In this document: in pieces, positions 39,033 to 47,355 of the stretch
Position numbering within the stretch: the stretch's first letter is position 1
How the letters are laid out: every line of letters begins with the position of its first letter
The notes under the pieces: generated by a model
The model's input: the letters and a program-made list of their open reading frames with translations, nothing else
What the model was told of the DNA's origin: nothing
Databases searched by the model: none
Assembly: GCA_003153375.1 (NCBI GenBank)
Contig: PLYM01000194.1
Location: 84,879-135,964, forward strand
Length of the DNA: 51,086 nt
Origin: Planctomycetaceae bacterium
GTDB taxonomy: Bacteria > Planctomycetota > Planctomycetia > Pirellulales > PALSA-1355
Reading direction: 5' to 3'
Position numbers and translations under genes: made by a program

Positions 39033-41183
39033 ATGGATTTCAATCACACGCAACAGCAGTCTGGCGATGAGCAGTTGCGGGCTCAAGCGCTGAGCCTCAA
39101 GCCTTCGCGGCCGCCCACTCAGGTGCCCGGCTATGAGCCCCACCGCTTCTTGGGCGCGGGCGCCTATGGCGAGGTCTGGGTCGCCGTCGATCGCACCACC
39201 GGCCGCAAAGTGGCGATCAAGTTCTATGCCCATCAAGGCGGCCTCGACTGGTCGATCTTGTCGCGCGAGGTCGAGAAGCTGGCTTTCTTGTCAGCCGATC
39301 GCTACGTGGTGCAACTGCTCGACGTCGGCTGGGAAGCCGATCCGCCTTATTATGTGATGGAGTATATCGAACAGGGTTCGCTCGAGGACTTGCTCGCGCG
39401 CGAAGGCAAGCTGCCCGCCCGCGAGGCCGTGGCCCTGTTCCGCGACGTCACGGTCGGTCTGCTCCACGCGCACGGCAAGGGCGTGCTCCACTGCGATCTC
39501 AAGCCGGCCAACGTGCTATTGGATCAAGACACGCGTCCACGACTGGCCGACTTTGGTCAATCGCGGTTGTCGCACGAGCAGACGCCCGCACTCGGCACGC
39601 TGTTCTACATGGCGCCAGAGCAGGCCGATTTGCACGCCGTGCCCGACGTGCGCTGGGATGTCTACGCTTTGGGCGCGTTGCTCTATTGCATGCTGACGGG
39701 CTCGCCGCCGCACCGCAGCGAGTCGGCGGTCACCGAATTCGAAACCGCGACCGATCTGGAAGAACGTCTGGCCCGCTACCGGCAGTTGATTGAGAACTCG
39801 CCCCCCTGCAACAAACATCGCCAGGTGCCCGGCGTCGATCGCGAGTTGGCCGATATTGTCGACGGCTGCCTGGCGCCGCGGCGAGAACAACGATACGCCA
39901 ACGTCCAGGAGGTGATCGACGCGCTGAACGCTCGCGACCGCCGCAAAGCGCGGTGGCCGCTGGTGCTGCTGGGCTTTGTGGGCCCGGCCCTGTTGCTGGC
40001 CATCGTGTCGATTTTTGCCTGGAGCTCGTTCGAGACCGTGATGGCCGAATCGGACGAAGCGCTGCAAGCCCGGGCGTTTGAGAGCAATCTGTTCGCCGCC
40101 AAGTATGTGGCCAAGACGGTCACCAACAAGCTCGAGTTGTACTATCGCGCCGTCGAGGAAATGGCCGGCAGTGCGCGCTTCGAGAGCCTGCTGGAAGAAA
40201 CGATCGACGACCCGGAGATCGTCGACCTGCGCCGGCAACTGAACAGCACGCACTTGGACGCCGAAGCGCGCGACGCGCTGCGCGCCCGGTTGATCGATCA
40301 TCCGGCCCGCAAAAAACTGCAAGAGCGCTTGCAGGATCTCTTGCACGACGAGAGCGAGCCGGACGTGGCCAGTTGGTTCGTCACCGATCCCGAAGGGATG
40401 CAACTGGCCCGCGCGCCGGAGCATTCGACCGTGGGCGACAACTTCTCGTGGCGCACGTATTTTCACGGCGGCAACGAGGACTATGCCGAAGACTGGCGGG
40501 CCAAGCCCAACGACCACATCACAAAGCCGAACTTGTCATCGGTGTTTTTCAGCCAGGTGAATGACTGCTGGATGGTGACCATCTCGACGCCGGTCTATAA
40601 GGAAGAGGCGAAGGAAGACACGGACGAGACCGATCGACGCTTCCTCGGTGTGATTGGCCTGTCGGTCAAGGTGCGTCAGTTCGTCAAGCAGGAGAGCAAT
40701 CGGCCGTTCGTGGCGCTGGTCGATTGGCGGCCGGGCGACAACAAGGGGCTGATCTTGCAGCACCCCCTGTTCGACAAGCTGCTGGCCGACGACAAGCAAG
40801 TGCCCGATCGTTTTCCGACTTATCGACTCAAAGACGGCAGCGAATTGCCCGACTCGCCGGCCAAGCGAGAGAACTACATCGATCCGCTGGCCAAGGATCC
40901 GCAGGGCAAGGAATACGACAAGCACTGGCTGGCAGCCGCGGCTCGCGTGAGCATTCGTGACGGCCAAACCGGCTGGATCGTCATCGTGCAAGAGTCGTAC
41001 GAAGGCGCCATTGGCGGCGCGCTCGCCAAGCTCAAGCAAAGCTTGTTCTCTGGCAGCCTCGTAGCCGCCTTGCTGATTGTCGTGTTGTCGGCCGTTCTGT
41101 GGGCCCTGGTCGTGCGAGCCTTGGGCGAGCCGACGCGCGCCACGATCAAACCGCCAGTGCCGCAGCCGGAGCCCACGGCGTGA
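39033..41183 (+). CDS. Transmembrane Ser/Thr protein kinase with extracytoplasmic Cache-like sensor
   Basis: 716 residues. The cytoplasmic Hanks-type kinase (34-300) has the Gly loop LGAGAYGEVW, ATP lysine Lys63, catalytic loop HCDLKPAN (Asp155), DFG at 173-175 and APE at 194-196. Cys154 replaces the usual Arg of HRD, making it a non-RD kinase. Membrane helix 1 is at 308-330 and helix 2 at 673-693. The roughly 340 residues between them (including DVASWFVTDPEGMQLARAPE, GDNFSWRTYFHGG, and STPVY then LGVIGLSVKV) resemble a dCache ligand-binding domain as in chemoreceptors. An input outside the membrane thus seems to control the kinase. The FHA-cyclase gene follows after 40 nt. Confidence 0.92.
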   Translation: MDFNHTQQQSGDEQLRAQALSLKPSRPPTQVPGYEPHRFLGAGAYGEVWVAVDRTTGRKVAIKFYAHQGGLDWSILSREVEKLAFLSADRYVVQLLDVGWEADPPYYVMEYIEQGSLEDLLAREGKLPAREAVALFRDVTVGLLHAHGKGVLHCDLKPANVLLDQDTRPRLADFGQSRLSHEQTPALGTLFYMAPEQADLHAVPDVRWDVYALGALLYCMLTGSPPHRSESAVTEFETATDLEERLARYRQLIENSPPCNKHRQVPGVDRELADIVDGCLAPRREQRYANVQEVIDALNARDRRKARWPLVLLGFVGPALLLAIVSIFAWSSFETVMAESDEALQARAFESNLFAAKYVAKTVTNKLELYYRAVEEMAGSARFESLLEETIDDPEIVDLRRQLNSTHLDAEARDALRARLIDHPARKKLQERLQDLLHDESEPDVASWFVTDPEGMQLARAPEHSTVGDNFSWRTYFHGGNEDYAEDWRAKPNDHITKPNLSSVFFSQVNDCWMVTISTPVYKEEAKEDTDETDRRFLGVIGLSVKVRQFVKQESNRPFVALVDWRPGDNKGLILQHPLFDKLLADDKQVPDRFPTYRLKDGSELPDSPAKRENYIDPLAKDPQGKEYDKHWLAAAARVSIRDGQTGWIVIVQESYEGAIGGALAKLKQSLFSGSLVAALLIVVLSAVLWALVVRALGEPTRATIKPPVPQPEPTA

Positions 41184-41223
41184 GCATTCCACGCCGCGCG
41201 GCAAGCCGCCCCAGGAGTTGTGC

Positions 41224-43008
41224 ATGGCCGATCTAATTGCCCAGGGAGCCGATTCGCAGCATCGCTGGCGGCGGACTTTGCTCGTCGGCCGGCCCGTTAC
41301 GTTGGGCCGCGCTCCGGGCGGTTGGCCCACGTCGTGGGATGATCGCGTTTCGCGGCAGCACGCCGAGGTTTCTTGGGACGGGCAGCGCCTGGACGTGCGC
41401 AGGCTCGAGGGGGCCCGCAATCCGATCTTCGTCAAGGGCCGGCCCGAGGCACAGTTCAAGATCGAGCCCGGCGAGCATTTCGTGATTGGTGAGACGACCT
41501 TCACGCTCACCGACGAACGGGTGAACGTCTCGCTCGATGTGCCGCCGCCCGCGCAACAGCAGACCTTCAGCTCGCAATATCTGCAAAAGATTCAATTTCG
41601 TCACACGGGCGCCCACATCGACGTGCTGGGACGCCTGCCAGAAGTGATCTCGGGGGCCAGCAGCGACTCGGAGCTCTCGGTGCGGTTGGTCAATCTGCTA
41701 CTCACGGGCTTGCCAAGGGCCGGCGCCGTGGCGTTGGTGATGGTCAAGCATCCGGAGAGCGCGCGGCCGGGCATCGAAGTCTTGCACTGGGATCGCCGCT
41801 CGATGATGGCCGGCGATTTTCAACCGAGCGAACGGTTGATTCTCGATGCCATTCGCCGCCGCCAAAGCGTGTTGCACGTCTGGAATGCTGCCGACACGAC
41901 CACCGCGTCCAGCTTCACGGTCACCCAGGGGGTCGACTGGGCTTTCTGCACGCCCGTGGGCGGAAAGGCTTGCGACGGATGGGGCATCTATGTCGCTGGC
42001 CGTTTTGTCGACGATCATTCGACGCCCGTCGACGTCTCGGATCCGAACGACTTGCGAGACGACCTCAAATTCACCGAACTGGCCGCCACCACGCTGGCCG
42101 CGCTGCGTGATGTGCGCGTGCTCGAGCGGCATCGGGCCGGCTTGAGCCAGTTCTTTTCGCCGGTCGTGCTCGAAGCGTTGCAAGGCGTCGATCCCGAGAT
42201 GGTGCTGGCGCCGCGCGAGACGGAAGTCTCGGTGTTGTTTTGCGACTTGCGCGGCTTTTCTCGCCAATCGGAACGCTCATCGGAAGATCTGCTGGGCTTG
42301 CTCAACCGCGTCAGCCAGGCCTTGGGTGTCACGACGCATCAAATTCGCGAGCAAGGCGGCGTGTTGGGCGATTTTCACGGTGACGCCGCGATGGGTTTTT
42401 GGGGGTGGCCACTGGCGCAGCCCGACGCCGCCGCGCGGGCGTGTCAGGCGGCACTGGCCATCCGTGCCGAATTCATTGAGACGGCCCAACGCATTGACGA
42501 TCCGCTCACCGGCTTTCGCGTCGGCATCGGCATTGCCACCGGCCGCGCCGTGGCGGGCAAGATTGGCACCGTCGACCAAGTGAAGGTGACGGTGTTCGGA
42601 CCCGTGGTCAACCTGGCGTCGCGCCTCGAAGGAATGACCAAGATCCTGCAAGCGCCCATCCTGATCGACCGCCGCACGGCGATCGTGGCTCGCAATTGGT
42701 TGTCGCCGCAAATGGCCCGGCTGCGGCGCGTGGCCGTGGTCAAGCCCTATGGTCTGGACCGCAAGGAAGAAGTCGTCGAGCTGCTGCCGCCGCTGTCGCA
42801 GTACCCTGCCCTGACCGATCAGCACATCGCCGAGTATGAAAAGGCCCTCGACGATTTGCTCGCCGGCAACTGGTCGGGCGCCTTCGAACGCCTGCACCGC
42901 GTCCCCGCCGAAGACCGCGTGAAAGACTTCCTCACCGTCTTCATCGCTCAGCACAATCGCACTCCGCCCGAAGGCTGGAACGGAGTCATTCCGCTACTAA
43001 CCAAATAG
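41224..43008 (+). CDS. FHA domain-GAF-like-class III nucleotide cyclase
   Basis: 594 residues from the ATG at 41224. Residues 15-100 form an FHA phosphothreonine-binding domain (VTLGRAPGG, RVSRQHAEVSW, LEGARNPIFVKG). A GAF-like middle region (about 135-300) follows. The class III cyclase domain has metal ligands Asp341 (LFCDLRGFS) and Asp387 (FHGDAAMGF), and transition-state residues Asn463 and Arg467 (VVNLASRLEG). The adenine-recognition pair, usually Lys and Asp, reads Asp383 and Lys454. It is cytoplasmic, with no membrane segment. Directly downstream of a membrane Ser/Thr kinase, the FHA domain probably docks on that kinase or its substrates. Confidence 0.9.
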   Translation: MADLIAQGADSQHRWRRTLLVGRPVTLGRAPGGWPTSWDDRVSRQHAEVSWDGQRLDVRRLEGARNPIFVKGRPEAQFKIEPGEHFVIGETTFTLTDERVNVSLDVPPPAQQQTFSSQYLQKIQFRHTGAHIDVLGRLPEVISGASSDSELSVRLVNLLLTGLPRAGAVALVMVKHPESARPGIEVLHWDRRSMMAGDFQPSERLILDAIRRRQSVLHVWNAADTTTASSFTVTQGVDWAFCTPVGGKACDGWGIYVAGRFVDDHSTPVDVSDPNDLRDDLKFTELAATTLAALRDVRVLERHRAGLSQFFSPVVLEALQGVDPEMVLAPRETEVSVLFCDLRGFSRQSERSSEDLLGLLNRVSQALGVTTHQIREQGGVLGDFHGDAAMGFWGWPLAQPDAAARACQAALAIRAEFIETAQRIDDPLTGFRVGIGIATGRAVAGKIGTVDQVKVTVFGPVVNLASRLEGMTKILQAPILIDRRTAIVARNWLSPQMARLRRVAVVKPYGLDRKEEVVELLPPLSQYPALTDQHIAEYEKALDDLLAGNWSGAFERLHRVPAEDRVKDFLTVFIAQHNRTPPEGWNGVIPLLTK

Positions 43009-43067: not shown

Positions 43068-43691
43068 ATGATGCGGATTCCAGTCTACATCGCAATCTTC
43101 AGTCTACTCCTGCTCACGCCGCGCGTGCTGTCGGCGGCTGACGGCCAACGTCGAACCTGGAATTTCGATCACGATAAGACGGGCGAGATCGCCCCGGGCT
43201 TCGTCGGGGAAGTCGGCACCTGGCGCGTTGTCGAAGCGGGGCAAGGCAAAGTGCTCGCGCAATCCGCCAAGAACTCGGACCCCACGTTCAACGTCACGCT
43301 TATTCGCGATACGAATTCGAAGGACGTCGACATTTCGGTCGACGTCCAAGCCATCGCTGGTGAGTTGGATCGCGGCGGCGGAATCGTCTGGCGCGCCAAG
43401 GACGCCAAGAACTACTACCTCGCCCGTTACAACCCGTTGGAAGACAACTATCGACTCTATCACGTCGTCGATGGTAAACGCACGCTACTTCAAAACGCCG
43501 ACCTCCCGCATTCCGATCGCGCATTCACCCTCCGCATCGCCATGACGGGCGACCACATCGAGTGCTACTACAATGGTAAGAAGTACCTCGACTTCCATGA
43601 CGCCACGATCACCAAGCCCGGCATGATCGGCCTGTGGAGCAAGGCCGACGCGCAATCGCAATTCGACAATCTTATTTTGATTGGCAAGTAG
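43068..43691 (+). CDS. Secreted DUF1080/LamG-like protein
   Basis: 207 residues. A signal peptide (YIAIFSLLLLTPRVLSAAD) is followed by one jelly-roll domain: WNFDHDKTGEIAPGFVGEVG, DVDISVDVQAIAGELDRGGG, YYLARYNPLEDNYRLYHVVD, HIECYYNGKKYLDFHDATIT and GMIGLWSKADAQSQFDNL. This is the concanavalin-like fold of DUF1080 and 3-keto-disaccharide hydrolase-related planctomycete proteins, usually binding or cleaving sugars. No catalytic residues can be assigned. It starts 59 nt after the cyclase gene but is probably a separate unit. Confidence 0.8.
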   Translation: MMRIPVYIAIFSLLLLTPRVLSAADGQRRTWNFDHDKTGEIAPGFVGEVGTWRVVEAGQGKVLAQSAKNSDPTFNVTLIRDTNSKDVDISVDVQAIAGELDRGGGIVWRAKDAKNYYLARYNPLEDNYRLYHVVDGKRTLLQNADLPHSDRAFTLRIAMTGDHIECYYNGKKYLDFHDATITKPGMIGLWSKADAQSQFDNLILIGK

Positions 43692-46994: not shown

Positions 46995-47355
46995 GGGGGC
47001 GAACTGGGTTCGACCGGATAGCATGAAGTGTGGGTGGCGTGCCGTGGTTGGTCAGTGGGCCACGTAAAAAGCTGACCAATATCTTCAATTGCCGAAGATA
47101 GCTTTGCTTTGGCTGCCTAGAGATAGGTAACCCGAGTTCCGGGCTTTAGTCGGAGAGGCCCAAAAACTCGTCACCAAATCCGAACCGCCTCGGGTCACTG
47201 CTGGGCACGTCCGAGGTTAAAAAAGTTCCTGGCTGGCTTGCGCGGCACCCCGTCGGTTGGGGGCCTGCGAGCGAGACGCGTAAATGATCCGACTACGCAC
47301 GTAGAAGCCCCCATGGAAATATCGCGGGACGCGGGTTCGATTCCCGCCGCCTCCA
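46995..47355 (+). ncRNA. ssrA: Transfer-messenger RNA (one-piece)
   Basis: Rescues stalled ribosomes. The 5' GGGGGCG (46995-47001) pairs with 3' CGCCTCC (47348-47354), followed by discriminator A at 47355. The 5' end continues GAACTGGGTTCGACCGG and the 3' end has a TPsiC arm, CGGGTTCGATTCCCG. CCA is not encoded. The tag reading frame starts at GCC (47091) and ends at TAG (47118-47120): peptide AEDSFALAA, with the ALAA end recognised by ClpXP-type proteases. It is about 361 nt long and not split into two pieces. Confidence 0.95.

Follow-up and report, generated by a model that had tools for sequence, protein, structure and literature searches.

Eukaryote-like kinases number in the dozens in planctomycetes, and to our knowledge hardly any of them has a known partner. 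Two neighboring genes of a Planctomycetaceae bacterium (assembly GCA_003153375.1) raise the question of what one such kinase may control. The window analyzed here is the whole stretch of 51,086 nucleotides at positions 84,879 to 135,964 of contig PLYM01000194.1, and the two genes and their parts lie on its plus strand. The first gene (39033..41183), recognized from its open reading frame and Pfam matches, encodes a transmembrane Ser/Thr kinase of 716 amino acids, and the second (41224..43008) encodes a protein of 594 amino acids with FHA, GAF-like and class III nucleotide cyclase parts. We propose that the two probably form a transmembrane signaling module, in which a ligand would act through a dCache sensor on the kinase, the kinase would phosphorylate Thr6 of its N-terminal tail, and docking of the FHA domain on phosphorylated Thr6 (pThr6) would control the cyclase.

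From its N terminus, the kinase consists of a cytosolic tail, the kinase domain, a first membrane helix, the sensor, a second membrane helix and a short cytosolic tail. The catalytic domain (residues 34-289; 39132..39899) matches PF00069 with an E value of 1.6e-44 and carries the complete signature of a Hanks-type Ser/Thr kinase, namely the Lys in VAIKF, HCDLKPAN, DFG and MAPE, all of which are conserved in orthologs; it is of the non-RD class. The first-pass annotation had described an inside catalytic domain and a Cache-like part of about 340 residues between two membrane helices, and both the Pkinase match and the structural model bear this out. The extracytoplasmic part is flanked by one long helix on either side in the model, with helix 1 (residues ~307-331; 39951..40025) lying as a hydrophobic stretch within the model's long first helix and helix 2 (residues ~672-696; 41046..41120) corresponding to its last. 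In the kinase itself, dCache_1 (PF02743) falls below threshold (E 6.6e-4), but 20 of the 24 orthologs give a match (best E 2.4e-9). A search of the PDB by sequence with the sensor found no match, and fold comparison was needed for the assignment. An AlphaFold model built on 24 orthologs (mean predicted local distance difference test 88, predicted template modeling score 0.79) had as its best PDB neighbors, by both Foldseek and VIA, the dCache domains of DctB, PscC, PctA, KinD and others. By VIA, DctB aligned with a Z score of 18.0 over 218 residues at a root mean square deviation of 2.8, and PctA with a Z score of 16.4. Comparison of the 331-672 region with dCache domains had been set as a test beforehand, and the region is predicted to be a double Cache fold, with the sensor spanning residues ~339-665 (40047..41027). 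Residues of PctA that mark the amino-acid/AI-2 (PctA/CahR) subfamily of dCache_1 were compared by motif register only and with no superposition. The Arg equivalent to R126 of PctA is invariant, W128 is replaced by Tyr or Phe, and the positions of D146 and D173, the acids with which PctA canonically binds amino acids, are non-acidic in the sensor; Y144 was included in the same register comparison. We infer that the sensor binds some ligand.

The cyclase gene follows closely. Because almost all orthologs share the N-terminal sequence M-[AP]-D-L-I-A-Q-G, we place its start at the ATG at 41224 and not at the TTG at 41077, where the listed open reading frame opens; full-length orthologs are consistent with this start, an AGGAG ribosome-binding-like sequence (41213..41217) lies 6 nucleotides ahead of it, and the gap from the kinase stop codon is 40 nucleotides. 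The FHA domain (41224..41517), assigned by sequence and family profile, is divergent, scoring 18.2 bits against a Pfam cut-off of 20.7 for PF00498, yet it keeps the phosphothreonine-binding residues GR, SxxH and N, here G28 R29, S43-R-x-H46 and N66, with R41 at the predicted +3-reading position. At E<=0.01, PF00498 matches 25 of 38 orthologs, the best of them at 2.7e-7, and a profile of the family retrieves the solved FHA domains 3gqs and GarA from the PDB. R29, H46 and N66 are present in 38/38 orthologs, G28 in 37/38 and S43 in 36/38, and Pro replaces Gly after Asn66. The outliers are L258, with N66H, and L263 and L267, with H46Q, and the kinase tails of these lineages are likewise atypical. 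Of the composition first claimed for this gene, the spacing, the FHA domain and the class III cyclase domain stood, and the middle (residues ~117-270; 41572..42033) is only suggested to be GAF-like by the order of secondary structure elements in the model, since a profile search gave no sequence match for it. A long helix that may serve in signaling (residues 274-307; 42043..42144) precedes the cyclase domain in the model.

Do the two genes belong together? In a kinase-domain search of 296 Pirellulales genomes, the kinase ortholog was found in 128 (E <1e-91, with a clean gap to many other kinases) and was single-copy in 126 of these. The cyclase was found in 126 genomes and both genes in 117, leaving 11 with the kinase alone and 9 with the cyclase alone; Fisher's p for this co-occurrence is ~1e-57, which is no true probability since the genomes are related. 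Adjacency had been expected in related genomes, and it proved common without being universal. The genes are adjacent in 4/4 genomes of the bacterium's own family and form 41 adjacent pairs across Pirellulales, in about 40 of the 117 genomes with both, and in other orders of Planctomycetia 74 genomes have both genes, 37 of them adjacent, for 39 adjacent pairs. Across a sample of the phylum, cyclase matches were confined to the class Planctomycetia, with none outside it. Because the adjacency recurs in many genomes of separate families, a pairing by chance is ruled out. Adjacency is thus conserved but dispensable, as unlinked pairs still co-occur.

A conserved neighborhood could nevertheless be nothing but inherited gene order, with the two proteins not cooperating at all. 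Where a Pirellulales genome has both genes, they are apart or on separate contigs in roughly two thirds of cases, and lysS is likewise kept near the pair, at five loci, so that part of the adjacency is plain inherited gene order. Inheritance of order does not, however, account for co-occurrence of the genes even where they are unlinked (117 genomes, out of 128 with the kinase and 126 with the cyclase), for duplication of the whole adjacent pair in three genomes (G052, G425 and G450), or for the logic of an FHA domain beside a Ser/Thr kinase, and the neighboring glyoxalase gene and the gene at 43068 are hardly ever retained beside the pair. We regard inherited order without cooperation as very improbable.

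Here we add a candidate site of FHA docking that goes beyond the earlier description of the locus. The Thr6-x-x-Gln9 motif in the cytosolic N-tail of the kinase (39048..39059) is proposed as the docking site on the basis of its conservation, spacing and co-loss with the cyclase. Thr6 is present in 24/24 aligned kinases, and no other cytosolic Thr outside the kinase fold is conserved; the tail itself is otherwise poorly conserved except for Gln9 at +3 and an L-S element. With position measured from the glycine-rich loop, T-x-x-Q occurs at -34 in 48/49 sampled Pirellulales genomes that also carry the cyclase. Of 58 kinases from other orders, 51 place a Thr at exactly -34, and in most of the remainder a T-x-x-Q or T-x-x-M is found in a shifted register. 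Of the 11 kinase-bearing Pirellulales genomes in which the cyclase was not found, 7 come from a single genus (g68 of family f17), and the motif is present in 0/7. General divergence does not explain this loss, because equally divergent kinases with the cyclase in the same genome (G139 and G207) keep the motif. The four other cyclase-less genomes keep it as well, and in three of them (G060, G184 and G192) the kinase sits at a contig end, so that the cyclase was probably just not sequenced. The activation-loop Thr184 was also considered as an FHA ligand and was ruled out, as it is not conserved.

A different location for the phosphothreonine is suggested by Bdellovibrio DgcB, an FHA-GGDEF diguanylate cyclase in which the FHA domain reads a threonine in its own flexible N-terminal tail, gating the cyclase, and whose kinase is unknown (PMC6733907). 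By analogy, the FHA domain here could read a phosphothreonine that the kinase places on the cyclase itself, with Thr6 serving otherwise, for example in kinase regulation. In favor of this reading, cyclase Thr232, which borders a low-confidence loop, is kept in 37/38 orthologs, but its +3 residue is variable, and Thr114 in the linker is kept in just 21/38. The FHA domain moreover starts at the very N terminus, leaving no DgcB-like N-tail, and self-reading leaves unexplained why the kinase tail lacks its motif where the cyclase has been lost. We consider this arrangement unlikely.

Further information comes from the +3 position. FHA domains pick phosphothreonine ligands partly via the +3 residue, which in Rad53 FHA1 is read by Arg83, which stands two positions N-terminal to the conserved Ser, although the +3 rule is termed controversial in the same source (PMC4037201). 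In the kinase tails the +3 residue of Thr6 is Gln or Met, and FHA residue 41, also two before the conserved Ser, is aromatic in 20/21 Met-type pairs versus 6/64 Gln-type pairs. Met at +3 arose at least twice on the kinase tree; its second origin is confined to L276, which has Glu39 and Phe41 along with it. The covariation between +3 and residue 41 is suggestive of a tail and a reader that changed together. A coupling of Gln or Met with Asp39 or Glu39 was perfect in 25 pairs but failed class-wide, where Gln-type pairs with Glu and Met-type pairs with Asp both occur, and only position 41 holds.

These residues also bear on a variant of the same pathway in which the FHA domain binds some third phosphoprotein, and cyclase activity is set either by the GAF-like domain or by the kinase phosphorylating the cyclase. 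Such a partner would suit an FHA domain that falls below the Pfam cut-off, in a genome with 14 other FHA matches and many kinases, and it would suit two genes that are often unlinked. Invariant FHA ligand residues, the co-loss of motif and cyclase, and a +3 reader that covaries with the kinase tail argue against it, and we judge it somewhat less probable even than self-reading.

Besides the frequent separation of the genes and the retention of lysS, several observations weigh against direct docking of the cyclase on the kinase tail. The covariation amounts to 2-3 independent changes, giving a sign test p of 0.5 and no phylogenetic significance, and the co-loss of motif and cyclase rests on one main lineage, with G314 as a second case lacking the motif. 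G446 retains the motif though no cyclase was found there, and any of the 14 other FHA matches in the genome could also read Thr6. In family f7, related cyclases occur in the absence of a kinase ortholog, and the FHA domain must have another partner there. Phosphorylation, binding and activity are, finally, predictions from sequence and model.

With these points taken into account, the two-gene module remains the reading we favor. The dCache sensor outside the membrane would detect a ligand and set the activity of the cytosolic Ser/Thr kinase, which would phosphorylate Thr6 of its own N-tail or of that of its dimer partner. The FHA domain of the cyclase would dock on pThr6, reading Gln at +3 (Met in other lineages), and docking would join or reposition the cyclase subunits through the GAF-like domain and the signaling helix, whereupon the homodimeric class III domain would make cyclic nucleotide. 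Because class III catalysis requires homodimerization, activation by docking seems more likely than inhibition.

Which cyclic nucleotide would be made is a separate question. The class III catalytic domain (42205..42798), identified by Pfam, structure and alignment, matches Guanylate_cyc (PF00211) with an E value of 2.5e-12, and its structural comparison gave Z scores of 20-22 to OaPAC, CyaB and CyaC. The metal-binding D341 and D387 and the transition-state residues N463 and R467 are present in 38/38 orthologs. In class III cyclases, the substrate-selecting sites choose the purine. An ATP-specific adenylyl cyclase has Lys at the first of these and Asp or Thr at the second; here, Asp383 replaces Lys at the first site in 38/38 orthologs, a position that is Glu in the guanylyl cyclase Cya2, and Thr456 occupies the second in 36/38. 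The conserved mixed site matches neither canonical adenylyl nor canonical guanylyl cyclases. The protein remains a class III cyclase, but ATP specificity is not to be assumed, and the Asp/Thr site would be compatible with either cyclic AMP (cAMP) or cyclic GMP (cGMP) as product. A plasmid search with the cyclase matched only the generic catalytic domain.

Each part of this arrangement has known relatives. PknB/PknG with GarA/OdhI and the type VI secretion system kinase PpkA with Fha likewise join a Ser/Thr kinase to an FHA-bearing partner, often from clustered genes. Their outputs are metabolic enzymes or secretion and not a nucleotide cyclase, and their kinases sense through PASTA or other domains rather than through dCache. 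The class IIIb cyclases CyaC (Spirulina) and Cya2 (Synechocystis) share the catalytic fold, the metal, Asn and Arg residues, and the Thr at the second substrate site, but differ at the first, where the present family has Asp in place of Lys or Glu, and the FHA/GAF-like N terminus is found here. Ser/Thr kinase and class III cyclase domains are coupled in Myxococcus Pkn2, which has a cyclase-like domain (PMC1262709), and in the TOMM kinase/cyclase fusion TIGR03903, whereas here they lie in two separate, FHA-linked proteins, of which the kinase includes a dCache receptor part. Fusion families of this kind, including TIGR03903, were tried as models and scored far below their cut-offs. DgcB resembles the present cyclase as an FHA-regulated cyclase reading a tail threonine, with a sensory Ser/Thr kinase postulated upstream, but its GGDEF domain makes c-di-GMP, where a class III domain is predicted to make cAMP or cGMP, and its tail is its own, where the proposed tail here belongs to the dCache receptor kinase encoded by the next gene. 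An existing tabulation of Cache domains covers both Ser/Thr kinases and cyclases that bear them (PMC4822843), and FHA-kinase gene clusters are known (PMC1262709). A paper on the planctomycete kinome (PMC11032199) makes no mention of Cache or cyclases, and our literature search found no paper joining FHA domain, adenylate cyclase and planctomycetes, nor one on this gene pair or on planctomycete FHA-cyclases, in keeping with the earlier remark that a Cache-kinase/FHA-cyclase pair is little described. What is new here is the proposed combination of a receptor Ser/Thr kinase with a class III cyclase as its FHA-coupled effector, the parts being known separately.

Several further observations concern the locus and its relatives. 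The LSL element of the kinase tail (residues 20-22; 39090-39098), conserved as L-S ~19 residues ahead of the glycine loop, may be a second phosphosite or a helix cap. In the g68 genus, L217-L220 (G109, G216, G164 and G240) keep the dCache kinase and have lost both the FHA-cyclase and the T-x-x-Q tail; the kinase must have another output there. The family f7 cyclases without a kinase ortholog (L213, L214, L215 and L216, all Pirellulales) are ~40% identical to the one described here. The neighbors of unlinked cyclases were inspected for a replacement kinase and proved to be FtsH, DUF1549/1553 proteins, dehydrogenases, sulfatases and uracil-DNA glycosylase, with no common second partner. Class III cyclase and cyclic nucleotide-binding domains give only two matches apiece in the whole genome, beside its 14 other FHA matches. 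Downstream of the pair, 43068-43691 encodes a secreted DUF1080/3-keto-disaccharide-hydrolase-like protein that is not kept beside the pair in relatives, and a transfer-messenger RNA gene with the tag AEDSFALAA lies at 46995-47355.

Extending the module to the whole class is a bolder step, for which we put the chances at slightly under even: a Planctomycetia-wide system in which a dCache kinase autophosphorylates a T-x-x-Q/M tail, directly recruiting and gating an FHA class III cyclase with an unusual Asp/Thr site, the +3 specificity of tail and FHA domain having co-evolved. The FHA +3 rule could be tested on this natural set of co-varying pairs. The pair also gives one planctomycete kinase an exact predicted partner, phosphosite, reader pocket and measurable output, and, if the proposal is correct, extracellular Cache sensing, Ser/Thr phosphorylation and cyclic nucleotides would be joined in one two-gene circuit.

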